Shown here in pieces: positions 32,008-51,040 of a stretch of 52,842 nucleotides of DNA. Positions within the stretch are counted from its first letter, which is position 1. Each line of letters starts with the position of its first letter. Under the pieces are notes generated by a model, which worked only from the letters and a program-made list of their open reading frames with translations, was not told where the DNA came from and did no database searches. The position numbers and the translations under genes are program-made. This DNA comes from Methanobacteriota archaeon. GTDB lineage: Archaea; Undinarchaeota; Undinarchaeia; Undinarchaeales; Undinarchaeaceae. Location: assembly GCA_002687935.1 (NCBI GenBank), contig NZBN01000003.1, positions 1 to 52,842 on the forward strand, written 5' to 3'.

Positions 32008-34209
32008 TTAAGGGAAACCCCCGCCTCCAGGTAGAGTTATTGGACATCCATCTGTATCAACTACAGTTCCTGTCTGAGTATTTGGACAGTCATCGTTCAG
32101 GTCATTTACTCCATCTCCATCTGAGTCCGTCCAAAGATCACAGGCGTCACCAATTCCATCATCATCAGAATCATCCTGATTCGTATTTGATATTAGTACA
32201 CAATTATCTGTATCATCATTCACGTAATCTCCATCACTATCCCTTTCAGAAGCGCAGCATCCAAGGAAGCTTCCACTCTGCGCTGGATTACAATCTGGAG
32301 GAGAGTTCTGACACTGGTCAAGATCATCAAATATACTGTCTCCGTCACTATCTCTCTGGTATGCAGCACAGCCATTACTATCAACAGAGGAGCCTGCTAT
32401 TGTATTTGGACAGTCATCACCAACGTCGTCAACTCCGTCATTATCATCATCACTATCTTCTGTGGAATCCTTACATCCATCACCATCTCTGTCATACCAG
32501 CCACCAGACCAGCCGCTTTCTCCTGTTGGACAGTCGTCTATAGCATCCGGAATTCCGTCATTATCATCATCCAGATCTTCTGAGTCCTTACATCCATCAT
32601 TGTCGTGGTCTGAACCTGAAGAACTTCCATCAGGACACTGGTCAACATCATCATTCATTCCATCTCCATCAGTATCGCGCTGAGATGGGCTACATCCACA
32701 GGTGAGTGGGTTGCTTACACACCAAGTGAGTCCAGTTACACCATTTGTATTGGAGCAGTCATCTATAATATTCGGAACTCCGTCATTATCCTCATCTTCT
32801 AATTCAGCAAGAGCACATCCAAATATTTGGGAAAGAGCACTATTTTCTATAATATCATTAACATACTGCGCAGGTGTATTCGGACACATATCATCAACGT
32901 CGTCAACTCCGTCATTGTCATCGTCGGTGTCACAATCATCTCCTTGGCCGTCATTGTCGTGGTCCTCTTGGTTCGCGTTCGCAATATTCGGACAATTATC
33001 CACATCATTTGCTACTCCGTCTCCGTCATTGTCTATGAGTCCGTCACAGGCGTCACCAATATCATCGTTATCTGCATCAGCTTGATTACTATTCGCATTA
33101 TTTGGACAGTTATCCTGACCGTTATTCACGCCATCATCGTCAATATCTGGGTCACAGGCGTCTCCAAAACCATCTCCGTCCATATCTGCTTGATTTTCGT
33201 TATAATTATCTGGACAGTTGTCATTACTGTCAGATGTTCCATCATTATCACTATCTTCACATCCATCATCGGCGACATTAGTTCCTTCTACAGTTCCTGA
33301 GCAACTGTCAGTTGAATCCAAGACTCCGTCGCCATCATCATCATCGTCACAGGCGTCTCCAAGACCGTCACCGTCAGTGTCTGTCTGTGCGCTGTTTGAA
33401 ACTGCAGGACAGTTGTCATTACTGTCAGAAAGCCCATCTCCGTCACTATCCGTACAACCATCTTCCGAAACAGTTTTTCCTAATGTAGTATAGTCGCACT
33501 GGTCAGGCTCATTAAGAACTCCATCATTGTCAATATCTGGGTCGCAGGCGTCTCCTTTACCGTCTCCGTCATGATTTGTCTGATCTAGATTGTAATTAGA
33601 TGGACAATTATCATCTTGCCAATATATTCCGTCGTTATCTCCATCAGGGTCACAATAATTCATTGGATTTCTTACAACAATTGTCATTGATTCAGGAGTT
33701 TCCACTGTAACGCCGGTTCTCCGAATCTCCAATGCCGCAGGATCCTGCTCCTGATCGAATAATACAATTATTTCAACAGAATCTGTTAGTTCCCTAACAA
33801 AAATGTCCGAAGCCCACGGAACTCCATAAAGGACAGTAGCGAATTTGCTATTGTATTCTGTTATAAAGCCATTTACAGCCTCTTTCATAGCTGGCTTGTT
33901 GTAGTCCAGCCGCGTGAAAAGCTCACTTATCGTGTAAATATCCCTCGCTGGGTCGCAACTCTCTCCAAGTTCGTAGAGTGTGTAGCTTCTAATAGATTCT
34001 CTTACAAGATTATCATAAAATACACTCTTTCCCTCAAGCTCCTGCATTCCGCCGATTATAACTTCTTTAACGATGCCTTTTGCTTCTATTCCTGCCGCAT
34101 TCTTCTTTGCCATATATGTAACAGTCACTTCGGCGCTCAGAAGCAGAGCTATAAGGAAGAACTGGAGGAATATCAGCTGAGCTTTTCTGTTCTTCAGAAG
34201 ATTTATCAT
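32008..34209 (-). CDS. Pilin-like protein with thrombospondin type 3 Ca-binding repeats
   Basis: The 733-residue protein begins MINLLKNRKAQLIFLQFFL, a class III prepilin-like start (RKA|Q plus hydrophobic helix), followed by a pilin-like domain to about residue 185. From there to the end it is a rod of at least a dozen thrombospondin-3-type repeats, such as DTDGDGLGDACD and DNDGVDDVDDMCP. These are Asp-rich calcium-binding loops with paired cysteines. It ends in LPGGGGFP. It is last in the 36906-32008 operon and coupled by ATGA to the gene above. A stalk or adhesin role at the cell surface is inferred. Confidence 0.88.
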   Translation of the reverse strand: MINLLKNRKAQLIFLQFFLIALLLSAEVTVTYMAKKNAAGIEAKGIVKEVIIGGMQELEGKSVFYDNLVRESIRSYTLYELGESCDPARDIYTISELFTRLDYNKPAMKEAVNGFITEYNSKFATVLYGVPWASDIFVRELTDSVEIIVLFDQEQDPAALEIRRTGVTVETPESMTIVVRNPMNYCDPDGDNDGIYWQDDNCPSNYNLDQTNHDGDGKGDACDPDIDNDGVLNEPDQCDYTTLGKTVSEDGCTDSDGDGLSDSNDNCPAVSNSAQTDTDGDGLGDACDDDDDGDGVLDSTDSCSGTVEGTNVADDGCEDSDNDGTSDSNDNCPDNYNENQADMDGDGFGDACDPDIDDDGVNNGQDNCPNNANSNQADADNDDIGDACDGLIDNDGDGVANDVDNCPNIANANQEDHDNDGQGDDCDTDDDNDGVDDVDDMCPNTPAQYVNDIIENSALSQIFGCALAELEDEDNDGVPNIIDDCSNTNGVTGLTWCVSNPLTCGCSPSQRDTDGDGMNDDVDQCPDGSSSGSDHDNDGCKDSEDLDDDNDGIPDAIDDCPTGESGWSGGWYDRDGDGCKDSTEDSDDDNDGVDDVGDDCPNTIAGSSVDSNGCAAYQRDSDGDSIFDDLDQCQNSPPDCNPAQSGSFLGCCASERDSDGDYVNDDTDNCVLISNTNQDDSDDDGIGDACDLWTDSDGDGVNDLNDDCPNTQTGTVVDTDGCPITLPGGGGFP

Positions 34210-34913
34210 ACTATAAGTTGCCCACCTCCATACCTCTGCGGAGTGAAGGGATCTTCGTATCCACTCGTTCCCGTTGTTCCACTCGTTCCTGATGTTCCTG
34301 TTTGAGCCTGTTGAGCCGCCGCCTGTTCTGCTACATTAACAAGGTTCCAAGTTTCGAGCTTCAGCCGGATTCTGTCTATGTTTGTAGAAACTACAGTTTC
34401 AAAATAAGGAACAGTAAATTCACCAACCCTCTTTGTTTTCATCTGCAGGGTTTCGGTTCTCCTCAAATTAGGCAAGTACTGGATAATTTCACCAATCTCT
34501 CCTTCTTTTGGTGCTGTACTCTGCAGTTCCCACATTACCGAATCACCGGTATCCATAAACCTTATCTCAAATTTGAAATTGGTCCACCGTCCGGAAAGTA
34601 TCGTCTCAAGTTTATCCAGCCCAACATCCTGCGCCCACTGCCTGTCAGCTCCCATTCTACTGATTATCTGAGCTCCGGTCATCTCTAGATCCTCATCATA
34701 AGAACTCAGTATTGCGCTCATCATCATCCTCGCGGCTGCTCCCCTCTCAGCTTCCTCAAGAACGACTTCCGTTGACTCTATACTTGAGGGAACATTTACT
34801 GAAAATACTACAACTATCGAAACTGCGATAACTATGGTACCGACGACTGCCATTATATCTGCTGTTGTTGGCTCTTCTACACCCTTTTTATTTCTGAAAA
34901 TTCCCCTTCTCAT
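34206..34913 (-). CDS. Prepilin-like protein
   Basis: The 235-residue protein has NKKGVEEPTTADIMAVVGTI at its N-terminus: a basic-Gly site, an acidic stretch, then a hydrophobic helix (about 19-40). The remainder is a soluble extracellular domain without cysteines, ending in a Gly/Thr/Ser-rich linker (about 200-217) with repeated GTSGT. A minor pilin or pseudopilin is likely. It overlaps its neighbours by 4 nt and 1 nt. Confidence 0.7.
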   Translation of the reverse strand: MRRGIFRNKKGVEEPTTADIMAVVGTIVIAVSIVVVFSVNVPSSIESTEVVLEEAERGAAARMMMSAILSSYDEDLEMTGAQIISRMGADRQWAQDVGLDKLETILSGRWTNFKFEIRFMDTGDSVMWELQSTAPKEGEIGEIIQYLPNLRRTETLQMKTKRVGEFTVPYFETVVSTNIDRIRLKLETWNLVNVAEQAAAQQAQTGTSGTSGTTGTSGYEDPFTPQRYGGGQLIV

Positions 34914-35752
34914 CAGTCGAGCGACCTCTCTGTTGTGCTTGTGTAAATCGTTCTCTCATAAACTAATGCATACTCATTAGACGGAATTAATATTTCAACT
35001 TCATTACCGTTGTAGTATCCAAGAACTTCAACATCTATAGAGTATCTGTTATATTTGGAAAAGCTAGGGATGTCTCTTCCATGTTTATACACAGTAGGTG
35101 TAAAGTCTCGTGTTTTTTCTCCATACCAGGTTTCGTTCAGCTTGAAAGCACTTGGAAATGATGCACCTAGCTCATTATACTCATAAGTATAATCTGGTTC
35201 AGTACTCTCCTTCTCATACCAATTCTCTGTAACTCTGAGATTCATATCACAGTCCGCAAAACTGTCAAATGTCAAAAAGAGTTTACCACCCTGCACTCTT
35301 GGATTAGTTCTAAATGCGAGACTTCCAACTTCAACTTTCAGAATCCCTTTTTTATGTCCTGAACTCCCTTTGTCTATTGTCACCGGGATGCTCGCATAAG
35401 TTGGAAAATCACAATTAACTATCGACTGAATTCCCTGCGTAGCTGACGCAGAATTATCTAAATCCTTAATCTCTGCTTTCCAGATGTAGGGATATTTCTG
35501 AATACAGTTACCTTTATCAGAAGCTCCAGACCATTCAACCACTCCTTTAGCAATCGAGCCGGGTACCCTTAGACACTCATCTGAAGATATAAGAGTTTCA
35601 AGAATTTCAGTCGCAACGACACTTGATGACTCAACTTGAACTTGCTTGACAAGACCAACACTCGTTATTCCGACCATAACAAATAGACCAGAAAATATAA
35701 CCATCTCTGCCATCCAAAGCAGGGCATTACTCTGAGCCTTCCTGCTCATCAT
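34913..35752 (-). CDS. Prepilin-like protein with exported domain
   Basis: The preferred start is the ATG at 35752 (MMSRKAQSNALLWMAE), which gives an ATGA overlap with the upstream stop; the ORF extends seven codons further. RKA|Q is followed by a hydrophobic helix, then an extracellular region of about 240 residues with six cysteines or fewer and no recognised fold. It is part of the LamG/TSP3 operon. Confidence 0.7.
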   Translation of the reverse strand: MMSRKAQSNALLWMAEMVIFSGLFVMVGITSVGLVKQVQVESSSVVATEILETLISSDECLRVPGSIAKGVVEWSGASDKGNCIQKYPYIWKAEIKDLDNSASATQGIQSIVNCDFPTYASIPVTIDKGSSGHKKGILKVEVGSLAFRTNPRVQGGKLFLTFDSFADCDMNLRVTENWYEKESTEPDYTYEYNELGASFPSAFKLNETWYGEKTRDFTPTVYKHGRDIPSFSKYNRYSIDVEVLGYYNGNEVEILIPSNEYALVYERTIYTSTTERSLD

Positions 35753-36906
35753 CTTCGCATTCCCTCCAGCCACAACTGTTCTTCGGCTTCCCAGAGTGCC
35801 TGAGATTCTGAAAGATACATATGGTTTGCAACATTGAAATTAGGATTCTTATCTTCACTTTCCCCGCTCAAGTCAGTTGAATAGTCCCCTGCTCCTTCTT
35901 CGAAAGTCCATAGTCCAACCAAAGAATCTTCTGCAAATTCCTCGTTTGCAGCTTCTTCTATTTCATTTACAGTAAGGGCTCTTTTCCATATTGCAAGGTC
36001 GTCAACTCTCCCTTTAAAGTAAGGTCCGTTGAGATCGTCAGCAATGTCAGCTGTTCCGAGTGCTATCCAACTTTCCATTCCTCGCATATCTCCAAGGTCA
36101 GCAGAACTGCTCCAGAATTTTTCACCGTCTCTGTATATTATAAAAACTCCATTTCCTGCATCATAAACAAAGGCCAGGTGAACCCACTCCCCCCCTTCAA
36201 TAGAAATACCATTTTCACTTTCTGCTGGGAAAATTTTCTCGTCCATACAAATGTCTCTGCCCGGTCTCACAACAAAACGACACTCCTCATCACTTTCGCA
36301 GTAGACTCTCCATCCATCACAATGTACCTCATATGTTTCACAATCTTCACTTGTGCAGCTATACCATTCTCCAAACCTCACAGGACCTGCATTCTCCTGA
36401 CCAAAATCATCAACCCTCATCCAAAAAGCAAGCGTTGTAGATGCCCCAAAATTATAATCAGGAGTTACTGTAACAACGTTCCAAGCATAAAGAGGCGTTC
36501 CGTCAAATCCAATACCCCTCTCCCGTTCCTTGTGAATCAGCATGATGTTGTTGTTCCTACAGTCAACAGAAGAACTTTCAACAGAAACATCACTTCTGTC
36601 TATATATTGGTATCTGGCTTTTTCACTTTCATCACCTGCTTCCACCATTAAATAAGTGTCATCCTCCGAAAGCGAGAAAACATAGTCCTTTATACAGTCA
36701 TTCGCCACGGATATATCTGAATCCGTCATTAACATGCTGTCGATTACGCCGCCATAGATTGTCGCCCAGCGTATAAGGTCTCCGCTGCTGGCTCCTGCAA
36801 TCTGATAAGCACCAAGACCGATTCCTGCTCCTAGAACCAAAATACCTACAAGCATAACTCCAAGTGGAACTCCTCCGCCTTGAGCCTTTCTGGACCTGAG
36901 CGTCAT
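35749..36906 (-). CDS. Pilin-like protein with LamG/concanavalin-like domain
   Basis: It begins MTLRSRKAQGGGVPLGVMLV, with a hydrophobic helix to about residue 38. A LamG/ConA-like jelly-roll domain runs from about 155 to 320. Family-typical strands are TLAFWMRVDDFG, WVHLAFVYDAGNGVF, YRDGEKFW and FKGRVDDLAIWKRALTVNE. These domains usually bind sugars or protein surfaces. The domain has several cysteines in an insertion near 180-230. It is first in a four-gene operon with its own TATA box. Confidence 0.85.
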   Translation of the reverse strand: MTLRSRKAQGGGVPLGVMLVGILVLGAGIGLGAYQIAGASSGDLIRWATIYGGVIDSMLMTDSDISVANDCIKDYVFSLSEDDTYLMVEAGDESEKARYQYIDRSDVSVESSSVDCRNNNIMLIHKERERGIGFDGTPLYAWNVVTVTPDYNFGASTTLAFWMRVDDFGQENAGPVRFGEWYSCTSEDCETYEVHCDGWRVYCESDEECRFVVRPGRDICMDEKIFPAESENGISIEGGEWVHLAFVYDAGNGVFIIYRDGEKFWSSSADLGDMRGMESWIALGTADIADDLNGPYFKGRVDDLAIWKRALTVNEIEEAANEEFAEDSLVGLWTFEEGAGDYSTDLSGESEDKNPNFNVANHMYLSESQALWEAEEQLWLEGMRR

Positions 36907-36928
36907 ATTTGCTAAAGGGTCTCAGAGC

Positions 36929-36936
36929 ATTTAAAC
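36929..36936 (-). promoter_or_regulatory. TATA box of the LamG/TSP3 operon
   Basis: GTTTAAAT (minus reading) is centred 26-27 nt upstream of the ATG at 36906, so this four-gene set can be transcribed apart from the upstream pilin genes. Confidence 0.5.
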
Positions 36937-36957
36937 TTAATCAAGAAGGAAAATAGC

Positions 36958-37155
36958 TTAGAACAGGAGCTTCGTCAGATAGTCAGGAACTTGTTTTTGA
37001 AATTCTTCTGATGTTCCTGAAACAGTTTCTCCAATTGTTCCAAACATCACATCAGTGCTTCCCAGGAAAAAGGTAAGAATTATAGCAAGCGTTATTGCGA
37101 GTAATATTATGACTATGACCAGTTGAAGTGTCAGCTGTATTCCACGCTCATTCAT
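36958..37155 (-). CDS. Small prepilin-like membrane protein
   Basis: The 65-residue protein begins MNERGIQLTLQLVIVIILLA at the ATG at 37155, which forms ATGA with the upstream stop; the ORF can extend to 37173. It is a single hydrophobic helix after an RG site, then a short soluble tail. A minor pilin or assembly peptide is likely. Confidence 0.65.
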   Translation of the reverse strand: MNERGIQLTLQLVIVIILLAITLAIILTFFLGSTDVMFGTIGETVSGTSEEFQKQVPDYLTKLLF

Positions 37156-37475
37156 CGGATTTCCCATACGCACCTTTTATTTTCTCCATTTATAACATCT
37201 CCTTCTACAGACCTGCACTTCGCGTATGTCAGGTCACAGCACACTGAATCATCACAGTCTATATTTGGATCACCGGGGTAGCAGGAAGGAATTGCTGAGA
37301 GAACTCCGCCGATGTCTGTAGTGTCATTTGTTGCCAGCTTTCCAACTGTTCCTATACTACCTGCACTCTCCCTTGCTTCGTTAAAGAAGAAGTTAGATAC
37401 GAGAAAAACAACAAAGACAGCCAAGGCAAGTACTACAAGCATATTCATTCCAATAGAGACACCTTTTTTACTCAT
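37152..37475 (-). CDS. Prepilin-like protein, cysteine-containing
   Basis: The 107-residue protein starts MSKKGVSIGMNMLVVLALAV, a KKG|V site followed by a hydrophobic helix. The C-terminal part has six cysteines (CYPGDPNIDCDDSVCC, then C in YAKCRS and RCVWE), indicating disulfides. Its N-terminus closely resembles the pilin-like protein at 42780 (SINMLVIIALAVFVVFIV). It overlaps its neighbours by 4 nt on both sides. Confidence 0.7.
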   Translation of the reverse strand: MSKKGVSIGMNMLVVLALAVFVVFLVSNFFFNEARESAGSIGTVGKLATNDTTDIGGVLSAIPSCYPGDPNIDCDDSVCCDLTYAKCRSVEGDVINGENKRCVWEIR

Positions 37476-37852
37476 TCTACCCTCTGCCAGCTACATCCAC
37501 TTACTTTTATACAATTTGCTGAATCCAAATCCCCACAAGTCACAGTTCCGCCTGTGCATTTAAAGTTTGACCAAGTACATCCAAGATCTTCGCAAAGTGC
37601 TCTATTTCCTATGTTTGTGCAGGTTGGGTCTCCATTATCAGCAACACACTCAGTTTCAAAACTCCTTATTTTTTCACTTATTCCAATACTCTCAACAGCC
37701 CTCCCTGTCTGTCCGACAGTTTCTTCAATCTGACTCTGTGGCGCTTCCTTTCCTGTTATTAATATCTTCATAACTATTCCAAAGGCGACTACGAGCATTA
37801 CTATGGTTATTACAACTCCTATTGAAAGCGAAATTCCTTTTGTGTTTTTCAT
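37472..37852 (-). CDS. Prepilin-like protein with Cys-rich C-terminal module
   Basis: The 126-residue protein has TKG|ISLSIGVVITIVMLVVA at its N-terminus. The C-terminal half (about 68-126) carries eight cysteines in a pattern GCTW-x4-C-x-GGTVTCGDL-x4-C-x-KVSGC, shared almost exactly with the protein at 42323. The two genes flank the giant LamG gene. They are probably paralogous pilins or minor pilins stabilised by disulfides. Confidence 0.72.
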   Translation of the reverse strand: MKNTKGISLSIGVVITIVMLVVAFGIVMKILITGKEAPQSQIEETVGQTGRAVESIGISEKIRSFETECVADNGDPTCTNIGNRALCEDLGCTWSNFKCTGGTVTCGDLDSANCIKVSGCSWQRVE

Positions 37853-37865
37853 TTAATTATTGAAC

Positions 37866-40800
37866 TCAGCCGAAGCCCCCTGCCACTCCGTCTCCGCCAA
37901 CAACATAACCATCTCCACTACCTCCAGATGTTCCACCACCTGGTGAGACTCCACCACCTCCAAGACCGCCACCACTTCCTGTTCCAAACACGGAACAAGA
38001 GTCAGCAGTAGTTTTTGGAGTGAATGTTCCACCTGAGCTTGAAGAACTGCCACTTCCTCCTCCTAGTCCGAAACCTCCACTAAAACCACCTGTATCTGCT
38101 CCTGTTATAGTTCCTCCTGAAGTTTCTGAAGAGTCACATATCGTATCTTCATCTCGAGCTGTAAATTGAACGCAATCATCACTAAACTTACTCTTACAGT
38201 ATCCTATATCACATCCTCCACAAGGTCCAGTCCCTATGGTCATCTTTCCATAATAGTATGTTGTGCTTGTTAGTGTGTCACCAGCGCATACTGTGTTGTT
38301 CGGACATGTGTAAGTGAAGTCCCCACAGTCTGCGTTAACATCATCGGCCCAATTTCCACTGTTGTCGCTGTTGCTCGGGCACTGTATTTCTGTCGGGCAG
38401 TTGTCAATATAATTTGAAAGATATACTCTGTCTCTTCTTCCAGAGTCAAATGTTCCTGCTGATCCTGCTTTCACACGCTTCATAAGCTTGTCTGTGTCAA
38501 TTTCTGTCTGCTCAGCGACTCCTGCGCAGTCTCCTATTATGTTGCCGCACTCTGCCGGAACTTTGTAGATTTCATCGGGAGTGTAGTCTTGCTTGAGGCA
38601 GGCAAGCCTGCGATTGTCTGAACAACTTGCGTCAGCTTTAGAGAATGTGGAGCCGATGTCTACTCCATCAGCCTTACCATAAGTTCCGCCTGTCCCTAAA
38701 GTTCCTGTCCACGAAGTATCTGAAAGCAACTGTTCACAAGCCTCACCAGAGTATCCTCCACTACTGTCAGTCCCTGTCCAGAATTCATTGTCTGAAATGT
38801 ATGTTCCGTCTTCGTCGTAGGAGAAAGTTCTGCTGGCTAGATATCCAACATTTGCTCCTCCATAATAATTTCCATTATTATTCCTACTGTCAGAGGAGGA
38901 TCTATCTTGCACTGTTCCTGCTATCCATCCACCAAATTCGTAGACTGCTCCGAGATTTTCTGTATAATCTGTCCATCCCCATACTCCGTTTGTGTACTCA
39001 CCATAGGATTCAAAGATCTCTTCTGCCTCATCATTTAATGCGCCGTCATAAGAATAGAAGCTATAGTAAGGATTCTTTGTAATTCCCCCTACTCCTCCGC
39101 GACCAAGTTTTTGAAGCATATAATATTGTTCACGCCCAAGCTCAGTAGTCCATATTGTTATGGAGTCTATCATTCCTTTGAAATGATTTGAACTTGTGGG
39201 GAGGGCTTTCATCGCTCCTATATACAAATCCTCATCATTTGTCGAAAGTGTTGCATCAATTCCAAAAGGTCTTGAGGAACTTGTATCTGTGGAGTATCTA
39301 TCAGGTTTGTAGTAGTCCCACTCCGAAGCGTCTGATACATAGAGTGTCATCAACTGAGGACTTACAACAAATGTGAAATAGTGCCATTTATCTGTGGAAA
39401 TATCAAAACTAGAAGTTACCGTTTTCGTTGTAGTAGTTCCCCCTACTTCTCCTGATGCATTTAATTGTAGTTCGTCATTTGAATTAATTGCCAATTCATA
39501 ATTTATTTCACGATTTCCCTGTGAGCTCTTTGACAGTATAACTCTATATCCTGATGAAGGCTCTTCAAGCCAGAACCACCCAGTTACCGTAATCGCAGTG
39601 CTGGATTCAATATTGTTACTGTCCGGAATCTGTACATATCCACTGCTTCCGTCGAGCGAAAGAACATCATCCTCTAGCCATTTATATGCTGTACCAAAAG
39701 TGTCTCTTAGTCCGCCGTAAGTTATACTCTCTCCATAAACATTCTTAGCAGTTTCGGCTCTAACTCTACCCTTTAAATCATTTTCAAGATCGTTTTCTTT
39801 GTAGCTCAGAGCTGCAATCCATCTTCCTTCAAGACCGAGTGAGGAACTCTCCGCCTCCTGCTGGCAGATATAATCTGCTGATTCTATTCCATCTTCAAGA
39901 TTAAGACCAACTTCAAGCCTGCACAGAGGCTTCGTCAAATCATTTTCATATGGCTGGGTTGCCAAAGTTTCAGGATCCGAATTCTCACAATAGCCGGAGC
40001 CTCCTGCCCCAATATTACACAAGTAATCTGTGGAGCAGTCGCTTTGTGATGTACAGACCTTCTTCACAAAATAACTTGTTTCACATGCACTCTTTGAAAG
40101 GCTATGGCAGGCCGCTGGACTTTCTGAAACAAGAACACAGTCACCGAAAGTTTCACAACTCTCGACAGATATTCTTTCACAGTCAGTTGATGTAGGTGTT
40201 CCTACATTTCCACTACCTAAATCTAGGTTACTTCCGGCTCCTGCTGCCGTTCCTCCTAATTCAGTTCCGATAACGAAGCCTGTCGGAGCTCCCTGGAATC
40301 CATCTCCTCCTGAGCCTAGACCGGTTCCCGGACTTTCATCTCCTCCTGTTCCTGGCCCATCTCCCTCAGGTAGAGCAGGAGCTTCTCCCTCTCCACCAGT
40401 TCCACCAGAACCCTTATTCTTACAGGAGGTGTAAGGTATAGGTACGCAGCTGTAAGAGTCTGATGAAATTTCACCACTTGTTCCTTCAGACAGAAAGAGT
40501 GCATTCAGACCTATACTAATCTCTGGCGTGCTTAGTTTATCTGGTATTTCAGAATAAGCAGGAGTATCCCATTCTTCCGCTTCCCTGAGGGCGACCTTGG
40601 GATTAGGGGAGCCTGGCGTTTTTGCCCCTTTTCTGAACTCACTACACGCGACATATTGCCGTCCGCAGTAGTCTAATGATTCTCCGTATGAAATTTCCGG
40701 AGTATCGAAGTAAACAACACTTTCCTCCCAGGATTCTGTAATAGGTCTCTCTGGAGCCTCCCCAGCGCGCTCGAATCCTTCTGGACACTCTACATTGGAG

Positions 40801-42344
40801 AATCCTCCACAGTTGCGCAGGCACATCCATTCAGGGTCGTTATCACCGCAAAGCGTTTTTTCCTTTCCATCTCCTGCATACCGTGTATAGTCTGGGCAAA
40901 CTACCATATCACTTCCACAATTTTCGTATCCATCTGCTCCTGCCGTCCTTACCCACTGACCGGCAAACTCACTATAATCTGGACATTCAATCATATCGCC
41001 ACCGCAATTATTGTAGCGGTCTTCTATATATTCACAAAGTGACTTTTCACTATCATCGGTAAAACTCTCACATCTTTCCTGACTCAGACCAAAGCAAGCA
41101 GCTTCGTTCTCAGGCTGGAGTCCATGACAGCCTACAATTGTTTCTGGAACATATTTTCCGCCAAGTTCTGTATCTCCTGGACAGAGGACTTTTCCGAGTC
41201 TGCAATAGAGATAAAGATCATTCTCAGGTCCTTTCAGCGCAGTCTTCTTCCAGCCACAGTATCCATTTCGTGGAGTAGATTGTCCTGACGTGGTTCTCAA
41301 CTCTCCACCTTTCCTCTCTCCCTGGTTCTCCCTTCCTGATGCGTCCCTTACCATTGAACTATAGTATGAATCTCCCTCAAAAGAATAGTGAAGGACCAAA
41401 TTCTCAAGATTTTTGCCATAAGCAGGAGAACTCATATTCATTCCCCGCCTTGCTGACGAAAGTCTGTCGTCTGCATTCATAATCTCATTTATTTCTTCTA
41501 TAGTGAGAGCGGTTTCCCAGATAGAAACTTCATCTATGTAACCGTCAAAAGGATTCGAGCCACTTCCAGCGTTCGTATTATCTCCTATCCAAATATCAGT
41601 TCCCTCTGAAAATAGGTAATTTTCTTCTGTACTTTTCGTTGCTTCAAGTTCCCCATTGATATAAAGTTTCAAATCAGTGCCGTTATAGCTTGCAGCTATA
41701 TGAGTTCTCCATCCTGCATTAAGGACTCCTAGTGCTTTAACTACCTGAACCTCTGAGTTAGAATTGCTGTGATCTTCTGCATAAATACTAAGAGCAACAT
41801 TTCCATTTACTGTATAAAGAATCCAGTGTCTCCTTCCGTCGTTCCAAAAGTACTTACTTATAATATCTCTGTTAGTGTTCCCCACATCTCCTGGCTGAAC
41901 CCAGACTGAAAGTGTCAATCCTTCCGTTATATCTTCTACACCAGAAACTTCAATCTGTCCTCCACTTCCGTCCAAATAATATTGGTTTTCATCAATTCCA
42001 CAACCCTGTCTATCTTTGTCGCACCACTCAACAGGATTTCCCATCAAAGGAACGCAGGATTTTCCCACATCACTTATCGGGTCAACTAAATAATCTGGAC
42101 AGACGATATTTTCAAACTCTACAAAACCGCCGGCGTACTTTACGGCGCCTTCAAGATCAATAGCCGCTAGACCTTCTGCGCCTTCCAACCCTGTTTGCGC
42201 AATCGCAAGCTCCGGCGCGGCGGAGCCTGTTGTCGCATACTTCACACCCGCTGTGAGTGCGAGCATACCACTCGTTATTATGATTATTGCTCCAATTGTC
42301 AACTGAGCCTTTCTATTAAGTTTCAATTTGCCACCACTGTACAC
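37866..42344 (-). CDS. Giant pilin-like protein with two LamG domains
   Basis: A protein of about 1,490 residues. The N-terminus KLNRKAQLTIGAIIIITSGM gives an RKA|Q prepilin-like site and helix. LamG domain 1 lies at about 110-290 (YYLDGSGGQIEVSG, FDGYIDEVSIWETALTIEE). A Cys-rich region follows (about 330-560) with degenerate repeats such as NCGGDMIECPDYSEFAG and NCGSDMVVCPDYTRYAG. LamG domain 2 is at about 890-1085. The tail of about 90 residues is Gly/Ser-rich. GTG at 42344 or TTG at 42326 could start it; the TTG overlaps the upstream stop as TTGA, like the ATGA junctions here. Probably a large adhesin carried by the pilus or membrane. Confidence 0.88.
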   Translation of the reverse strand: MYSGGKLKLNRKAQLTIGAIIIITSGMLALTAGVKYATTGSAAPELAIAQTGLEGAEGLAAIDLEGAVKYAGGFVEFENIVCPDYLVDPISDVGKSCVPLMGNPVEWCDKDRQGCGIDENQYYLDGSGGQIEVSGVEDITEGLTLSVWVQPGDVGNTNRDIISKYFWNDGRRHWILYTVNGNVALSIYAEDHSNSNSEVQVVKALGVLNAGWRTHIAASYNGTDLKLYINGELEATKSTEENYLFSEGTDIWIGDNTNAGSGSNPFDGYIDEVSIWETALTIEEINEIMNADDRLSSARRGMNMSSPAYGKNLENLVLHYSFEGDSYYSSMVRDASGRENQGERKGGELRTTSGQSTPRNGYCGWKKTALKGPENDLYLYCRLGKVLCPGDTELGGKYVPETIVGCHGLQPENEAACFGLSQERCESFTDDSEKSLCEYIEDRYNNCGGDMIECPDYSEFAGQWVRTAGADGYENCGSDMVVCPDYTRYAGDGKEKTLCGDNDPEWMCLRNCGGFSNVECPEGFERAGEAPERPITESWEESVVYFDTPEISYGESLDYCGRQYVACSEFRKGAKTPGSPNPKVALREAEEWDTPAYSEIPDKLSTPEISIGLNALFLSEGTSGEISSDSYSCVPIPYTSCKNKGSGGTGGEGEAPALPEGDGPGTGGDESPGTGLGSGGDGFQGAPTGFVIGTELGGTAAGAGSNLDLGSGNVGTPTSTDCERISVESCETFGDCVLVSESPAACHSLSKSACETSYFVKKVCTSQSDCSTDYLCNIGAGGSGYCENSDPETLATQPYENDLTKPLCRLEVGLNLEDGIESADYICQQEAESSSLGLEGRWIAALSYKENDLENDLKGRVRAETAKNVYGESITYGGLRDTFGTAYKWLEDDVLSLDGSSGYVQIPDSNNIESSTAITVTGWFWLEEPSSGYRVILSKSSQGNREINYELAINSNDELQLNASGEVGGTTTTKTVTSSFDISTDKWHYFTFVVSPQLMTLYVSDASEWDYYKPDRYSTDTSSSRPFGIDATLSTNDEDLYIGAMKALPTSSNHFKGMIDSITIWTTELGREQYYMLQKLGRGGVGGITKNPYYSFYSYDGALNDEAEEIFESYGEYTNGVWGWTDYTENLGAVYEFGGWIAGTVQDRSSSDSRNNNGNYYGGANVGYLASRTFSYDEDGTYISDNEFWTGTDSSGGYSGEACEQLLSDTSWTGTLGTGGTYGKADGVDIGSTFSKADASCSDNRRLACLKQDYTPDEIYKVPAECGNIIGDCAGVAEQTEIDTDKLMKRVKAGSAGTFDSGRRDRVYLSNYIDNCPTEIQCPSNSDNSGNWADDVNADCGDFTYTCPNNTVCAGDTLTSTTYYYGKMTIGTGPCGGCDIGYCKSKFSDDCVQFTARDEDTICDSSETSGGTITGADTGGFSGGFGLGGGSGSSSSSGGTFTPKTTADSCSVFGTGSGGGLGGGGVSPGGGTSGGSGDGYVVGGDGVAGGFG

Positions 42345-42700
42345 CCGCTAACTTTCTGACACTGGGACAATGTCAGATCTGAACAAGTTACTGTTCCTCC
42401 ACAATAGCTGTCATCCCATTGACAAGTATTTATTGAATTGCAAACTGCCTGTGTCAAGCCTTCACAATCGGCGGCTGAAATACCACTTTTCCTATCGCAG
42501 TCATAACCTTGTCCAAGAATTCTTTCACGGATGTCCAGTTCTTCTATACCTTCTGCCGTTTCCGTGCCCGCCTCGCTTGCGGCAGCCGCCGGATCACGGA
42601 ATCCACCTGTAAAAAATTGCACAACAAAAAAGAGTACCATAACTGCCAGAGCCAGCGTCACAATTGTGGTAATCGACAGTCCTTGAGCCTTGCGTGCCAT
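42323..42700 (-). CDS. Prepilin-like protein with Cys-rich C-terminal module
   Basis: The 125-residue protein begins MARKAQGLSITTIVTLALAV, a clear RKA|Q prepilin-like start. Its C-terminal half repeats the Cys module of the protein at 37472: CQWDDSYCGGTVTCSDL, then QCQKVSGC. It is first in the operon 42700-36958 with its own TATA box. Confidence 0.75.
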   Translation of the reverse strand: MARKAQGLSITTIVTLALAVMVLFFVVQFFTGGFRDPAAAASEAGTETAEGIEELDIRERILGQGYDCDRKSGISAADCEGLTQAVCNSINTCQWDDSYCGGTVTCSDLTLSQCQKVSGCTVVAN

Positions 42701-42722
42701 AAAAAAGCCTAATCTCCGAAGA

Positions 42723-42730
42723 TTTAAATA
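42723..42730 (-). promoter_or_regulatory. TATA box of the giant-pilin operon
   Basis: TATTTAAA (minus reading) is centred 26-27 nt upstream of the ATG at 42700. Confidence 0.55.
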
Positions 42731-42749
42731 GCTACCGCTGCTTGTCTGT

Positions 42750-42773
42750 TAAAAAAAAGAGGGCGAGCCCTCT
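42750..42773 (-). terminator. Intrinsic terminator after the single-gene pilin unit
   Basis: On the minus strand a perfect 7-bp stem (AGAGGGC-TC-GCCCTCT, 42758-42773) is followed by eight T residues (42750-42757), 7 nt after the stop of the gene at 42780. Confidence 0.8.
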
Positions 42774-42779: not shown

Positions 42780-43163
42780 TTAGTTTGTAGCGCAAGTTGG
42801 AGCTAGAGGACCTTCAATGGATGCGTTGGCGGCGATTCCAGTACAAACATACCATTCTCCGTCTATTCTTCCATCACCGTCCAAATCAATATCAGCTCTC
42901 GTCGCCTTAAGTTTGTCATCCCAAACATCACCAGGAGCTATATCTGGTCTTCCTGCGTTTGCATACTGTGTACAGAAAGAATCACAAGTGATTCTTGCGG
43001 CTTCAAGACCTGACCCTGCTCCTGTTGTTGCTGCCCCAAATAAACCGGCGAACTTTGTCCAGCCGCCAGTCGTAAATCCAAGAACTATGAATACGACAAA
43101 GACAGCCAGAGCAATTATCACCAGCATATTTATTGACAGACCTTGTCCCTTTTTATTGGCCAT
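42780..43163 (-). CDS. Prepilin-like protein, candidate major pilin
   Basis: The 127-residue protein starts MANKKGQGLSINMLVIIALA (KKG|Q site plus helix), followed by GGWTKFAGLFGAATTG and a C-terminal domain with cysteines and a DLDGDGRIDGEW loop that looks like an EF-hand-type calcium site. Unlike the other pilin-like genes, it stands alone, with a strong TATA box at 43185-43192 and a strong terminator at 42750-42773, as expected for an abundant major pilin. That role is inferred. Confidence 0.75.
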   Translation of the reverse strand: MANKKGQGLSINMLVIIALAVFVVFIVLGFTTGGWTKFAGLFGAATTGAGSGLEAARITCDSFCTQYANAGRPDIAPGDVWDDKLKATRADIDLDGDGRIDGEWYVCTGIAANASIEGPLAPTCATN

Positions 43164-43184: not shown

Positions 43185-43192
43185 TTTATATA
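43185..43192 (-). promoter_or_regulatory. TATA box of candidate major pilin gene
   Basis: TATATAAA (minus reading) is centred about 26 nt upstream of the ATG at 43163. It is the closest match to the archaeal consensus in the pilus region. Confidence 0.65.
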
Positions 43193-43199: not shown

Positions 43200-43379
43200 T
43201 TAGTTCAGAACATCAACAGCCTGTCCGCTGAGAGTCTTGAACTTTCCTATTAATATGAATCCAAGCATAGCAAGCATCATCGCTATGACTGCGCCCACCA
43301 CTATCCACAGTGGTTCAATATCTCCCTTCCTAGAGCGTATCGCGTCTATCGCCCTGTATTTTATGAATTCCTTCATCAT
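43200..43379 (-). CDS. Very small prepilin-like protein (59 aa)
   Basis: The short ORF MMKEFIKYRAIDAIRSRKG... has an RKG|D site followed by IEPLWIVVGAVIAMM and one hydrophobic helix, ending AVDVLN. It is coupled by ATGA to the stop of the next upstream small gene. Gene coupling and the shared N-terminal pattern support it as real. The RKGDI start resembles the ORF at 46520. Confidence 0.7.
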   Translation of the reverse strand: MMKEFIKYRAIDAIRSRKGDIEPLWIVVGAVIAMMLAMLGFILIGKFKTLSGQAVDVLN

Positions 43380-43519
43380 CCTGGCAGTGCTCCTATCGCT
43401 CCTTTAGCAAGCTCGTAGAATTTAAATGCTATCATTAGAGCAACCATTACTAGAATTGCACCTATTATGAACTGCAGGGTAAATTCAATCCCTTTCTTGT
43501 TTTCAATTACACTTTTCAT
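43376..43519 (-). CDS. Very small prepilin-like protein (47 aa)
   Basis: The ORF MKSVIENKKGIEFTLQFIIG... has a KKG|I site, a Glu two residues later and one hydrophobic helix, then FKFYELAKGAIGALPG. Its start overlaps the upstream gene by 1 nt (TAATG) and its stop overlaps the downstream gene by 4 nt (ATGA). The Glu after the cleavage site makes it look like a genuine type IV pilin subunit or pseudopilin. Confidence 0.7.
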   Translation of the reverse strand: MKSVIENKKGIEFTLQFIIGAILVMVALMIAFKFYELAKGAIGALPG

Positions 43520-44694
43520 TAGTATTCCTCAATATCATATGTCGGTACAGAGCTCAGGTCCATAATTGCCATGGTTTCAGCTGTATCTATGAAGAGTTGA
43601 GTATAGAGAACCTCAGGCTCCCCAACTTTTATTGTTTTCGGGAATCCGCGATTCCACCTGATATTGTCTTTGTCAAATAGAAATGGAGCGAAATAAGCGC
43701 TTACTGGATGACTATATCCACACCCTCTATAGTCATTGGAGAATCCTTCGCCCCCCCATGAAAGAGTTACATGTCGTAATATCGATGAGCCCGTGTCAGT
43801 TTTTTCTGTGTAATCATAGTAACTATTCGGAAGTCCCTGTGCTCCAGTTGAACCAAGTTCCTGCTTAACAAAGCACTTACAGTCTTCACTTACTGGCCCT
43901 TCTTCAAGTACTGAGCACTTCGCCAGCATTGCAAGTGTCATTACCTGCTCGTCCATATAATTTGTTTTTACATAACACCTGTCTTCAAATTGATGATACC
44001 AGGCTGTTGCAATTAAACCATCGTTTGTCATAATTGTGTATTTATCTGTTTTCCACTGACCTTCAGTTCCGGGAACATCAATCCTTTCAGTTTCCGCGTC
44101 CCAATAAGCAAACCAATTTGTGCACCTTCCCGGCAATGGCATCTCGGGACCTTCGTTGGAGAGGACAACACTTATTTTAAAAAGTGGTATTCCCCAGCCG
44201 GCTGCGTATCCATAATAAGTTGTACCTCCGTGAAGGTAATGGAAGGCTTGTGAAGCCCTCCTGTAAATACAGGCTCCTGCTTCATAGGAGCTTCCGGCGC
44301 AGGTCACTGGCGTTTCTTTACAGAGCTTTGGGAATGCTGCTGATGTACCTTCCCTCAGGGCTTCGTAGACTGCTCTTTCTGTTGCATTAAGAGTCTCAAT
44401 GGCATCTCCAAAAGCCCAACCTTTTATACAATTTCCAGTAGAGTACAGCCAATTGCAATCCGGCTTCGAAAAATGGGTTTCATTAGTTTTTCCAATAACT
44501 GTTTCCATAACATTGGCTCTGACTGAAAGAGAACCGTAGCAAACACTTCCTGTTGCTTTTCCTTCTGTAGCACTCAGGAATGTTTCTGCCGAGCCCATCA
44601 TCACAACAGCAAGTCCCATAAGAACTGCCATACTTACTACAATTGATATTAATGCACCCTTTCTCTGTCTCATAATTTCCGATTGTTTTCTCAT
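43519..44694 (-). CDS. Prepilin-like exported protein, paralogue of next upstream gene
   Basis: The 391-residue protein has QRKG|ALISIVVSMAVLMGLA at its N-terminus. A cysteine-rich extracellular region of about 350 residues follows. It shares landmarks with the protein at 44699: AFHYLHGGT versus AFYSLHGST, KCFVKQELG versus ICFVKEELP, GCG near the C-terminus and NIRWNRG versus RIKWSSG. The pair probably arose by tandem duplication. The function is unknown; a pilus-associated surface protein is likely. Confidence 0.75.
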   Translation of the reverse strand: MRKQSEIMRQRKGALISIVVSMAVLMGLAVVMMGSAETFLSATEGKATGSVCYGSLSVRANVMETVIGKTNETHFSKPDCNWLYSTGNCIKGWAFGDAIETLNATERAVYEALREGTSAAFPKLCKETPVTCAGSSYEAGACIYRRASQAFHYLHGGTTYYGYAAGWGIPLFKISVVLSNEGPEMPLPGRCTNWFAYWDAETERIDVPGTEGQWKTDKYTIMTNDGLIATAWYHQFEDRCYVKTNYMDEQVMTLAMLAKCSVLEEGPVSEDCKCFVKQELGSTGAQGLPNSYYDYTEKTDTGSSILRHVTLSWGGEGFSNDYRGCGYSHPVSAYFAPFLFDKDNIRWNRGFPKTIKVGEPEVLYTQLFIDTAETMAIMDLSSVPTYDIEEY

Positions 44695-44698
44695 ATTA

Positions 44699-45841
44699 TT
44701 ATACTTGCTTTATCTTAATGACATTCCCTTCTGAAATTCTTATTAAACGGAATAAAAGTATCTTGGAATTTCCTTCAAAAATTCCCTGCTGTCCCCCTGA
44801 ACTCCATTTTATCCTGTCTCCCCCTATGTCTGAAACATTGAAAATAAATGGTTCAGGCTCCGCTCCGCAGCCAACATAATTGCCTCCCCATATGTAATCA
44901 CTGAAAGCATCAGTTTTTATCACCGGAGAAATTCTTGCATTATCCTGAACACTTATTTCAGAATTCCCAAGACCGTTTGCATCAGAGTAAACAAGCTTTC
45001 CAGGTAATTCTTCCTTCACAAAGCAGATACATGCTCCGGATTCTGGACCTACTATACCCTCTCTGTCCTGGGCATTCATACATCTCTCCATCGCTGCGAG
45101 TATCATTGTTGATTCATCAACAAATGATACTGTAATATTGCATTTATTACTTACAGAGTTCCAAATCACTTTAGAATCTTCCACACTAGTGTCGATCCAC
45201 TCTGAACAGGAACCGTCCATAAGAAAGGTACCAGGTCCATTTACCTTAGCCGTAATTTCAAATATATCAAAATCTGTCACTGCATTTTCTGTTGAACCAT
45301 GAAGACTGTAAAAAGCGTTTATCGAAGCTTGGTAGAGGAAATAAGATAACTGGTCTGCATTCATTGCGACTTCCACCCTTTCTGTCTGCCTCCTTGTACA
45401 TCTATTAGGGAAGTTATCTGTCATGCTGTCAGTTATTAATGTAACTCTGTTTTGAAGACCTTCAAATCCACCTATCGTCGCATCAATCAATTCTATTTCA
45501 CCAGCTGCCTTGGATACTCTATATAAATTCTGAACAGTTTTCACTTGCCCATAGACAGGAATAAAGGCAACTGCAACGTCAGTCCATTCCATATCGGCAT
45601 CCTCCACAGCCTTCTCTCTATTTTCCTCAAGTTTTTTAAGAATTTCCTGAAAACTAACCTGCATCTTCGCTTTCTGTCCTGTTCCAGAATAGCAGTAAGT
45701 TCCTGCACTTTCAAGCTCAGCCTTTGGCAGAAGATTTCCAAGAAAGAAGAAAATTCCAACAAGCAGACCAAGCCCCACAACTCCGGCAATAACTATCATC
45801 ATCCATCTCTGGGCAGTCGCACCCTTTCTGTTTGTTATCAT
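44699..45841 (-). CDS. Prepilin-like exported protein, paralogue of 43519 gene
   Basis: The start at 45841 (MITNRKGATAQRWMMIVIAG) is preferred: it puts the RKG|A prepilin-like site near the N-terminus and begins 2 nt after the Yip1-like gene's stop. The longer ORF to 45919 lies inside that gene. About 380 residues, with a hydrophobic helix (about 13-37), then an exported region with several cysteines. It is second in the operon that starts at 46482. Confidence 0.75.
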   Translation of the reverse strand: MITNRKGATAQRWMMIVIAGVVGLGLLVGIFFFLGNLLPKAELESAGTYCYSGTGQKAKMQVSFQEILKKLEENREKAVEDADMEWTDVAVAFIPVYGQVKTVQNLYRVSKAAGEIELIDATIGGFEGLQNRVTLITDSMTDNFPNRCTRRQTERVEVAMNADQLSYFLYQASINAFYSLHGSTENAVTDFDIFEITAKVNGPGTFLMDGSCSEWIDTSVEDSKVIWNSVSNKCNITVSFVDESTMILAAMERCMNAQDREGIVGPESGACICFVKEELPGKLVYSDANGLGNSEISVQDNARISPVIKTDAFSDYIWGGNYVGCGAEPEPFIFNVSDIGGDRIKWSSGGQQGIFEGNSKILLFRLIRISEGNVIKIKQV

Positions 45842-45843
45842 AG

Positions 45844-46482
45844 TCAGATAAGTGAAATCCCAAGGTTTACAAGTCCGATTGCCGCGAAGGCGAGGACTAC
45901 AGAAAGAATTCCCTTCCAATATGGTAAGTCATGAGACGCTGAAACTGCTGCAGATCTAATCCAGAGCGCCCAAGCCGTAAATATCGCAACTGTAACAGAG
46001 AGATATACTGTATAAATTCCGAAATAGGCAAAGGGGTCAGGAATAGTTCCTGTAGTTGTAATCTCGTAGAATGTTGCTCGCATCGAAACGAACTTGAACT
46101 GCAGTCCAGCCGCTGTAAGTCCCATCAAAGGCGCCAGCATCTGTTCATAACAAGCAAGTCCGAAAGTCGTTTCAAGATTTCCCTTTCCACCCAGAGCTTT
46201 TGCTACGTAATGAGCTATTGCAATAAAGATAAACAGAGTTGCAAAGGCCTTCGCCATCGCAGTCAATATAGAAATAGGGAGAAGTTCCAAACCGGCTCCG
46301 AAGTCAATAGGAATAAAACCAGTTCCAAGCCGTGCTTCCGCCGCCGCGTAAATTGCAAGCCCTGCGAAAGTCAGCATCAGCCATACAGCTGCTCCATGCT
46401 TCCAATTTGCATGCTCTTTGAGCTCCGTCAGCTCAGCTTTTGGTGTTATAAGCACTTTCAAAGTGCCGGCAGATACTTGCAT
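45844..46482 (-). CDS. Yip1-like multi-spanning membrane protein
   Basis: The 212-residue protein has about five TM helices and a conserved-looking central segment (GGKGNLETTFGLACYEQMLAP) typical of the Yip1/DUF1282 clan. Its exact function in archaea is unknown. It is first in the operon with the paired exported pilin-like proteins, with a TATA-like stretch at about 46496-46505. It may help membrane insertion or placement of that system. Confidence 0.7.
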   Translation of the reverse strand: MQVSAGTLKVLITPKAELTELKEHANWKHGAAVWLMLTFAGLAIYAAAEARLGTGFIPIDFGAGLELLPISILTAMAKAFATLFIFIAIAHYVAKALGGKGNLETTFGLACYEQMLAPLMGLTAAGLQFKFVSMRATFYEITTTGTIPDPFAYFGIYTVYLSVTVAIFTAWALWIRSAAVSASHDLPYWKGILSVVLAFAAIGLVNLGISLI

Positions 46483-46519
46483 ATTCTGATTAAAGATATA
46501 GACCTTAAATTCTTTCTGG

Positions 46520-46654
46520 TTAACTTATCATCCGTGTATATATGATGTACATCGTGGCGACTGTTGCAATCACTGCGAGTATTTTTATTACAAGAAGAAT
46601 GGTTTCGTCAATATCCCCTTTTCTGTTCCAGAGCCTACATTGTGAATATGTCAA
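46520..46654 (-). CDS. Very small prepilin-like protein (44 aa, TTG start)
   Basis: The frame from TTG at 46654 reads LTYSQCRLWNRKGDIDETIL and continues through one hydrophobic helix to MYIIYTRMIS. The RKG|DID start matches the RKG|DIE start of the ORF at 43200. It overlaps the 3' end of the TadC gene by 20 nt in another frame. There is no ATG near the N-terminus, so the start is uncertain. Confidence 0.5.
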   Translation of the reverse strand: MTYSQCRLWNRKGDIDETILLVIKILAVIATVATMYIIYTRMIS

Positions 46655-48746
46655 ACCTTCCAAAGAGAATCACCCCCGAAATCATCGCTATTGAATAAAC
46701 AATTACTGATACAATCAGACTCTTTCCAATCATATTGTTTCTGTAAACTTCGTCCTTTCCATTTTCTACACCGCTTATCAAGATGGAGAGAAGAACAGTA
46801 ACTTGTATTACATAAATTCCGACAACCATCTGCATCATCTCTGCAGGTATAGCATTTGCAACATCGAAGAAGCTCCCCTGGAAAATATTTCCAACTCCGG
46901 TTGTTCCTAGGACTCCAGTAGCTGATTCAGAGCCCTGCAAAGATCCAACCTTTGTGCTAAGTTCGCCGAGTATTCTCGTTAGAAGTATGTCAAGTGAAAC
47001 TATTATTCCGGCAATAAAAGAAGTCAGGAACTGCGCCTGAAACTTCATAGAGCTTACAGTCGTACCAAGAAGCTCCTTTATGTTACTCTTTACAACTTTC
47101 ATATTCTTCAGGTACTTGCTTATTGTTCTCATCGTGCTGGAAGTCGCACGAAGACCTTTCTTAGTTCCTTCCAAAACGATTTCCATCACCGTTCTGATGA
47201 GGTCAGAAGGGTAGTAGACTAAAGCACCTTCTTCTTTATTGAAAACAGCCTTTTCAAAGGGCATTCCCATAACTACCATATTGTCATTTATCTTTCTGAA
47301 GAATTTCTTAAGAGGTCCTTTTTTCAGGCTTCGTTCTGCCTCTCCAATAGCATGCTCTATCGGACTCCCCATATTCAGTCTGTCGCTCAAATCATAGAGG
47401 GCTACATCAAGTCCATCTTCAAGCGTTTCAAGTTCCATTCTTGCAGTGAGCTTCTGCCGCGAGCTGCCTATAGTGTATATTATTACTCCAAGAGCTATTC
47501 CCCAGATAAGAGTCATCGACTGTAGTATATTCATAAAACTGTAGCTTTCCGGAATTGAGAATATTTGCATTATTCCTGGAAAGCCTACCAGAAGTGCAAT
47601 CGCAATAGATACATAAATGAGGGGAACTTGCGTCACTTTACCGTTTCTGACTATTGCATAATGACCCTTCTTCGGCATTCCGGGTATTGTATCAACGCTT
47701 GCATGGGAGAAAGTTCCCGGGCGCTTACTTAGAATGAGTCGCATGAAGAAGAAAACTATGATTGGAAGAACTATATCGTAACTGATAAAGAGTGTTCTTG
47801 CCTTCATACCACCTGAAAGAATTGTCGTCATTATAGGAGCGAGAACCAGACCCATTACTGGAAGAACAATTGAAAGCATGTAAAGAACAATAACTGGCAT
47901 TGTCATTCCGCGGGCGAAATCCTTCATCATTTCAAGATTTCCCTCAAGCATCACATTCGATGCCTGATCAAGCGTTGCAAGTCTTTCCTTCTCATTTGCT
48001 ATGTTCACTGAGCCTCTGATAATCTCTATTGAAGTCGAAAAATTCTTGTTTTTATTCTGCCACTTTTCTGAATATTCTTTCAGAGCATCATCCATTGAGG
48101 AATAGGTTCCACTTTCCAGCTGCCATACAAGTCTGTTTAGGTCTCTTCCAAGAGGACTTCTGAGGTGCTTCCCGGCAAACATAACTGCTCCTTCTAGCGT
48201 TGGCGTGTTTCTCAGGTATATGACAAGATAGGTTATCGCAAGTGGCATGGAGTTCATAACTTGCATTGTTCTATTGCTGGCAACGAAGTTTGGATACTTT
48301 TGTATCATAACAAAGGAGATCAGACCGAGAAGCATCATCATCAAAGCCGTATTGAATGATATGAACATATAGGCAAAACCAGCAATTGACCACAAAAGAA
48401 AAGCCGCAAGTCCAAAACTCACAACTTCTTTGGCTTTTATCTTATATTCTATATAATCTAAAATTCCCTGCGTCTTTATAGCGCTTTCTTCTCCAATATT
48501 TATTTGGAAAATCTTCCCAGATTGCTTGCAGGCTTTTTCGAAAAATGTTTTTAGTTGCTCTTGCTCTTCCTGAGTTTTCTTAAATTCTGCATACTCCTTA
48601 GAATAAAGACCAAATTTATTTGTTCCCAATTCTTCAACTAATTCCTCTTTTTTTGCATCCTCCTCTTGAAGGAGTTTCCTTATCGTTTTCTGCTGCTCAA
48701 GAATTGGATGAGTTTTATCTTCTTTCTTCTTTCCAAAAATCGCCAT
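46635..48746 (-). CDS. TadC/ArlJ-like pilus membrane platform protein
   Basis: The 703-residue protein has an N-terminal cytoplasmic segment of about 110 residues and two type II secretion F domains (about 165-245 and 470-595), each followed by TM helices. It has about nine TM helices overall, the usual tandem-F layout of archaeal pilus platforms. It anchors the ATPase and works in pilin extraction and assembly. It directly follows the ATPase gene with a 1-nt overlap. Confidence 0.9.
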   Translation of the reverse strand: MAIFGKKKEDKTHPILEQQKTIRKLLQEEDAKKEELVEELGTNKFGLYSKEYAEFKKTQEEQEQLKTFFEKACKQSGKIFQINIGEESAIKTQGILDYIEYKIKAKEVVSFGLAAFLLWSIAGFAYMFISFNTALMMMLLGLISFVMIQKYPNFVASNRTMQVMNSMPLAITYLVIYLRNTPTLEGAVMFAGKHLRSPLGRDLNRLVWQLESGTYSSMDDALKEYSEKWQNKNKNFSTSIEIIRGSVNIANEKERLATLDQASNVMLEGNLEMMKDFARGMTMPVIVLYMLSIVLPVMGLVLAPIMTTILSGGMKARTLFISYDIVLPIIVFFFMRLILSKRPGTFSHASVDTIPGMPKKGHYAIVRNGKVTQVPLIYVSIAIALLVGFPGIMQIFSIPESYSFMNILQSMTLIWGIALGVIIYTIGSSRQKLTARMELETLEDGLDVALYDLSDRLNMGSPIEHAIGEAERSLKKGPLKKFFRKINDNMVVMGMPFEKAVFNKEEGALVYYPSDLIRTVMEIVLEGTKKGLRATSSTMRTISKYLKNMKVVKSNIKELLGTTVSSMKFQAQFLTSFIAGIIVSLDILLTRILGELSTKVGSLQGSESATGVLGTTGVGNIFQGSFFDVANAIPAEMMQMVVGIYVIQVTVLLSILISGVENGKDEVYRNNMIGKSLIVSVIVYSIAMISGVILFGRFDIFTM

Positions 48747-51040: not shown

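Follow-up and report, generated by a model that had tools for sequence, protein, structure and literature searches.

The window analysed here, a 52,842-nucleotide stretch of contig NZBN01000003.1, carries on its minus strand an 18-gene block (32008-51040) that probably encodes a type IV pilus-like filament machine whose lectin modules are displayed to bind another cell or a surface. We favor this reading because the block combines an intact ATPase of the GspE/FlaI fold, a TadC platform protein alongside it and strict class III leaders on 13 of its 18 genes with a prepilin peptidase in the genome, a conserved gene order and LamG domains carried on class III leaders. The original prediction, a large adhesion locus resembling that of a type IV pilus, is well supported, and its suggestion of attachment to a host or surface is plausible. 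The draft genome (666,542 bases in 11 contigs, archaeal, 86.6% complete) is that of a tiny, probably partner-dependent undinarchaeon.

Layout and secretion core

Read from 51040 down to 32008, the genes encode TadA, TadC, a 47-aa ORF, a Yip1-domain protein, the 380/391-aa pair, the 47- and 59-aa ORFs and proteins of 127, 125, 1492 (LamG), 126, 107, 71, 385 (LamG), 286, 235 and 733 aa (Table 1); most neighbors overlap or lie no more than 13 bases apart. TadA, TadC and fifteen prepilin-like proteins, as predicted, are all present, the number fifteen being reached only if four micro-ORFs (47-71 aa) are counted. Downstream of the 733-aa gene, a nucleoside-phosphorylase-type enzyme gene (30421-31947) plausibly forms the outer boundary of the locus; nearby, the protein encoded at 27695-28648 matches CW_binding_2 and has a winged-helix DUF7343 domain at its C-terminus. 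The Yip1-domain membrane protein sits within the block in three undinarchaeal families. A search of Rfam gave no match, and a search of PHROGs for phage origin gave no informative one. The claim that at least five promoters divide the locus could not be established: two internal TATA boxes, ahead of the 127- and 125-aa genes, are identical in the sister genome (G002), and the others are only TATA-like. A scan for sigma-70 promoters, the wrong type for archaea, returned hits at chance level (40 vs 38).

Table 1. Genes and regulatory elements of the pilus-like locus and the adjoining divergent pair; the residues of each class III site are given with a slash at the predicted cut.
Feature	Position	Strand	Support
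TadA/GspE2-type secretion ATPase, 764 aa, extra N-terminal region of ~200 aa	48746..51040	-	PF00437, 49.5 bits, above cut-off
TadC/FlaJ-type membrane platform, 703 aa	46635..48746	-	PF00482 below curated cut-off (18.8 vs 25.2 bits)
Micro-prepilin, 47 aa, NRKG/D, headless	46520..46663	-	class III-type ORF directly after TadC
Yip1-domain membrane protein, lacking a class III site	45844..46482	-	PF04893, 44.9 bits; also in G003 and G004
Class III protein, 380 aa, NRKG/A, paralogue of 391-aa protein	44699..45841	-	strict test; start reassigned to the ATG at 45841, immediately behind Yip1
Class III protein, 391 aa, QRKG/A, 12 Cys	43519..44694	-	strict test; relatives in G002, G003 and G004
Micro-prepilin, 47 aa, NKKG/I	43376..43519	-	strict test; homologue in G003
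Micro-prepilin, 59 aa, SRKG/D	43200..43379	-	strict test; homologue in G003
TATA box of candidate major pilin gene	43185..43192	-	identical in G002; G003 and G004 have TATA-like boxes in this position
Class III protein, 127 aa, NKKG/Q, candidate major pilin	42780..43163	-	conserved N-helix; own TATA box and hairpin
Terminator-like hairpin, then T8	42758..42773	-	different stem sequence at the same position in G002
TATA-like box CTATTTAAAT, ahead of the 42323-42700 gene	42722..42731	-	identical in G002
Class III Cys-rich protein, 125 aa, ARKA/Q	42323..42700	-	strict test; paralogue of 37472-37852
Class III protein, 1492 aa, two LamG domains, 50 Cys, NRKA/Q leader	37866..42344	-	PF13385 5e-39, two stretches
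Class III Cys-rich protein, 126 aa, NTKG/I	37472..37852	-	strict test; paralogue of 42323-42700
Class III protein, 107 aa, SKKG/V	37152..37475	-	strict test; weakly related to candidate major pilin
Class III protein, 71 aa, NERG/I	36958..37173	-	strict test; homologue in G003
Class III protein with LamG, 385 aa, SRKA/Q	35749..36906	-	PF13385 2.6e-17; strict test
Class III-like protein, 286 aa, SRKA/Q, Glu inside helix	34913..35773	-	sequence; fails strict test
Class III protein, 235 aa, NKKG/V	34206..34913	-	strict test
Class III protein, 733 aa, seven TSP3 Ca-binding repeats, NRKA/Q	32008..34209	-	PF02412 6.7e-60; strict test
Coiled-coil protein 1, 146 aa, divergent from TadA	51092..51532	+	78 of 95 loci have a divergent coiled-coil gene close to TadA
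Coiled-coil protein 2, 263 aa	51504..52295	+	second of the divergent pair

TadA, whose start was placed at the ATG at 51040, where aligned homologues begin, has a Walker A motif (GPRSSGKTS). Its profile matches archaeal GspE (2oap), CpaF and FlaI, and the best structural matches of its AlphaFold model (pLDDT 83.6) are 2oap and FlaI; the closest named ATPase, at 95% identity, is that of 'Candidatus Undinarchaeales archaeon SRR5007147.bin71'. Ten of the 27 members of the TadC family match PF00482, and TadC adjoins TadA in most relatives. Of the 95 loci with enough upstream sequence, 78 have a divergent coiled-coil gene no more than six ORFs from TadA, and the divergent pair at 51092-52295 belongs to the pilus-like system.

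This arrangement has been described before. Hamm et al. 2024 (PMC11291902) described, for both Undinarchaeota and cluster 2 DPANN, a 'Locus 2' made up of the genes for CpaF, TadC and coiled-coil proteins; as far as its locus descriptions go, filament proteins are named for Locus 1 only. Judged by the gene content described there, the window locus matches Locus 2 in an undinarchaeal form, with the same ATPase, TadC and coiled-coil genes and an ATPase clade distinct from that of Locus 1; what it adds to Locus 2 as described are fifteen candidate subunits, the micro-prepilin that follows TadC, a candidate for the main pilin and modular pilins bearing LamG or TSP3. Locus 2-type ATPases form one clade separate from Locus 1 ATPases, and full-length TadA orthologues occur in Aenigmatarchaeota, Nanohaloarchaeota, Woesearchaeota, Pacearchaeota and Nanoarchaeota. 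The same genome also encodes, on contig C7, a Locus 1-type system with ATPase, TadC-like, class III PilA-type, thermosome and coiled-coil genes, which differs from the window locus in its separate ATPase clade and its fewer subunits. The first ~200 residues of TadA, conserved in all Locus 2 ATPases, fall outside the match to solved ATPases. One locus from a record titled Heimdallarchaeota (L070) bears a DPANN-type Locus 2 ATPase that groups with those of Aenigmatarchaeota, and its Heimdallarchaeota placement is probably a binning error.

Class III subunits and the candidate major pilin

The predicted basic-(G/A) site ahead of a hydrophobic helix is found at most N-termini. By a strict motif test of our own rather than a trained predictor (a basic residue followed by Gly/Ala, a net-positive leader and an uncharged hydrophobic stretch of 14 residues), 13 of the 18 locus genes pass, against 7 of 100 controls drawn from elsewhere in the genome, its second pilus locus excluded (Fisher p=7e-9). 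Two more, at 46520-46663 and 34913-35773, have the site, but one or more acidic residues interrupt their hydrophobic stretch, and they pass only on visual inspection. The original prediction also noted that the window has no prepilin peptidase gene, which is correct; in the genome, a single PF01478 gene lies on contig C6; since a prepilin-family peptidase occurs in all ten genomes tested (one gene here, at least one in each of the nine others), its absence from the window carries no meaning.

The 127-aa protein is the best candidate for the major pilin, to judge from its sequence and genomic setting: its gene has its own TATA box and a terminator-like hairpin, suggesting separate transcription and termination, and the protein pairs a conserved N-helix with a variable head, all of which would be expected of a main pilin. 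Over four genomes, 16 of 25 positions are invariant in the N-helix vs 11 of 97 after it, and the helix is conserved over four genera. Its head and that of a second protein (L160:639-1016) contain an acidic loop of the DxDxDG type (DLDGDGRID / DLNGDGVND), which possibly binds calcium in the candidate pilin. A PDB sequence search with this protein and the 1492-aa protein as queries gave no match.

Small class III ORFs may have escaped notice elsewhere. In 21 of 68 loci, TadC is directly followed by a 30-60-aa ORF that bears a class III-type site and starts between -40 and +45 bases from the TadC end; for the ends of other genes in these sequences, the corresponding figure is 20 of 1170 (odds ratio 25.7, p=1.6e-17). 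Since the loci share ancestry, the p value treats them as more independent than they are, but the effect is large. A headless prepilin-like ORF in this position is, by these sequence criteria, recurrent across DPANN, and several loci add a second class III ORF of 60-75 aa with cysteines at its end. With four of the fifteen class III-type ORFs here no longer than 71 aa, we suggest that the missing pilins of Locus 2 are overlooked small genes.

At the other extreme of size stand the modular subunits, which bear out the predicted LamG, TSP3 and 1.5-kaa members: PF13385 is found in the 1492- and 385-aa proteins, and the 733-aa protein carries seven TSP3 repeats. Recognizable adhesive domains are thus confined to two of the fifteen and TSP3 to one; most have no known fold. 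For the 391-aa protein and its paralogue, AlphaFold prediction, which covered one class III protein, gave a pLDDT of 34 and was unusable. LamG acts as a lectin in some proteins, not in all. Two further LamG proteins are encoded elsewhere in the genome, on contigs C4 (1127 aa, with a Sec-type start) and C7 (1657 aa), and neither has a class III leader; within this genome, LamG is therefore joined to a pilin leader only in this locus. The very large LamG proteins L185:5166-10139 (contig C7 of this genome, G000) and L186:1055-6511 (G005) share a similar basic N-terminus (YKRYIKKGGKKVGPYYYDS / YKKYVTRKGKRHGPYYYES) that is not a class III leader. LamG proteins of Undinarchaeales have been proposed as adhesins earlier (Dombrowski et al. 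2020, PMC7414124).

Conservation and variation among relatives

The gene order recurs in each of three Undinarchaeota relatives. G002, of the same genus, has the entire block; in G003 and G004, which belong to other families, the genes still run micro-prepilin, Yip1, 380/391-type, micro-prepilins, 127-type, 125-type, so that the core order spans three families, the 391-aa protein being retained at 25-28% identity. Undinarchaeota relatives of the 391- and 1492-aa proteins lie in the same locus or the same order rather than apart from TadA and TadC. Some relatives have TadA and TadC with no class III genes detected nearby, and the link is thus not strict. The in-locus LamG proteins were not found in G003 or G004, absences that carry little weight for G004, whose genome is 75% complete and fragmented; in the corresponding part of the locus, G003 has a 517-aa CARDB-domain protein. 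A candidate homology between the 391-aa family and other large DPANN class III proteins was rejected by profile comparison (probability <3%), and the family appears, as far as its sequences have been seen, to be Undinarchaeota-specific.

The original prediction described the set as larger than a standard archaeal pilus. The window does stand at the top of the range (13 class III genes by the strict test, 15 by the relaxed one), but within known bounds: class III genes follow TadA/TadC in many other DPANN loci, strict counts downstream of TadA in other loci run from 0 to 12, many of them lower bounds set by contig ends and 10-20 kb limits, and 12 are reached both in G003, which has the same order, and in G009, from another DPANN family. 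The domains of the putative outer subunits differ among lineages, being LamG/TSP3 in one undinarchaeal genus, CARDB-type in G003 and lysozyme- and peptidase-like in an Aenigmatarchaeota relative. In the last, a class III-type protein (L086:12811-15597) has C39 peptidase as well as SLT transglycosylase domains, and L041 and L080 contain related ORFs; such domains are unexpected in archaea that lack peptidoglycan, and the protein is a possible envelope-breaching subunit.

Proposed mechanism, alternatives and known systems

For cleavage, polymerization, subunit positions, ligand and host, we posit the following. The peptidase encoded on another contig would cleave each of the fifteen leaders behind its basic-Gly/Ala site, and a TadA hexamer acting on TadC would raise the mature subunits out of the membrane to form a filament. 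Its likely main subunit would be the 127-aa protein, with the filament primed or spaced by the headless micro-prepilins and the Cys-rich proteins of 107-126 aa; the 380/391-aa pair and the LamG proteins could serve as modular minor pilins, placed either at the tip or on the shaft, the TSP3 protein as a calcium-stiffened stalk, and the lectin modules could bind glycans on another cell or surface.

The same components might instead build a short pseudopilus, a type II secretion-like piston exporting enzymes or adhesins. The abundance of minor-pilin-like proteins and scarcity of clear major pilins across DPANN, the high variability of the gene sets and the lysozyme-like SLT and C39 peptidase domains of the L086 protein are what such a piston would lead one to expect, but we consider it unlikely here: the large domain-bearing proteins are tethered by class III leaders and so resemble filament parts rather than free cargo, and a promoter and hairpin of its own flank the candidate main pilin gene. 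Pili have been proposed as DNA importers feeding nucleoside salvage in Undinarchaeota (Dombrowski et al. 2020, PMC7414124), and the nucleoside phosphorylase-type gene next downstream would suit an uptake pilus of this kind; the LamG and TSP3 modules, however, point to other binding targets, and a ComEC-type channel (PF03772) was absent from six undinarchaeal genomes, by a model that matched ten bacterial controls and no archaeal ones and is therefore a weak test for archaea, which together leave this role quite improbable. Least probable of all is a bindosome-like or static surface array in which class III proteins bind sugars or ions for nutrition and form no filament, since, although the Sulfolobus bindosome likewise joins class III substrate-binding proteins to a related ATPase and the BasE model matches TadA (far below cut-off), no solute-binding-protein family was found among the proteins scanned and the conserved small pilin-type subunits favor a polymer.

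Several known systems come close to this one. DPANN dark-matter islands beside ATPase/TadC genes hold signal-bearing unknown proteins that were read as diverse pilins (Makarova et al. 2019, PMC6393860, Fig. 2A), although the account of these islands gives no undinarchaeal locus, main-pilin candidate or analysis of promoters or adhesive domains; a survey of Nanohaloarchaeota found a pilus cluster of the Undinarchaeota type in which no pilins were annotated (PMC9563170). Subclade 4G of archaeal type IV pili, from Pyrobaculum-Thermoproteus, likewise has complex loci in which Cys-rich minor pilins are numerous and large adhesin-like proteins occur, but belongs to another lineage and uses a diverged ATPase of another family, with LamG and TSP3 not noted (Makarova et al. 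2016, PMC4858521). The minor pilin PilC of Streptococcus sanguinis, whose structure is solved, joins a class III leader to a concanavalin A-like lectin module and binds host glycans (PMC9934059); it is bacterial and the single lectin pilin of its system, whereas the window locus has two LamG pilins, one of 1492 aa. By this analogy the resemblance would be one of convergent design, with no homology implied. The bacterial Tad (flp) pilus has a secretin, an Flp pilin and a TadB/TadC pair; among the proteins scanned here there was no hit to such families, and TadC is one 703-aa protein. The locus is a known kind of system in an elaborate, lectin-bearing form; the placing of candidate subunits within Locus 2 itself is new.

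Locus 2 has been proposed as a candidate means by which DPANN archaea hold on to their partners, with no filament proteins named. The locus described here provides a testable list of subunits, a candidate for the main pilin and lectin-bearing candidates for the tip. We also raise, as a tentative and rather doubtful extension, that DPANN share a dedicated cell-to-cell attachment pilus with a headless micro-prepilin, general to the group and following TadC, in its base, the outer subunits being swapped among lineages and thereby deciding which partner would be gripped or breached.
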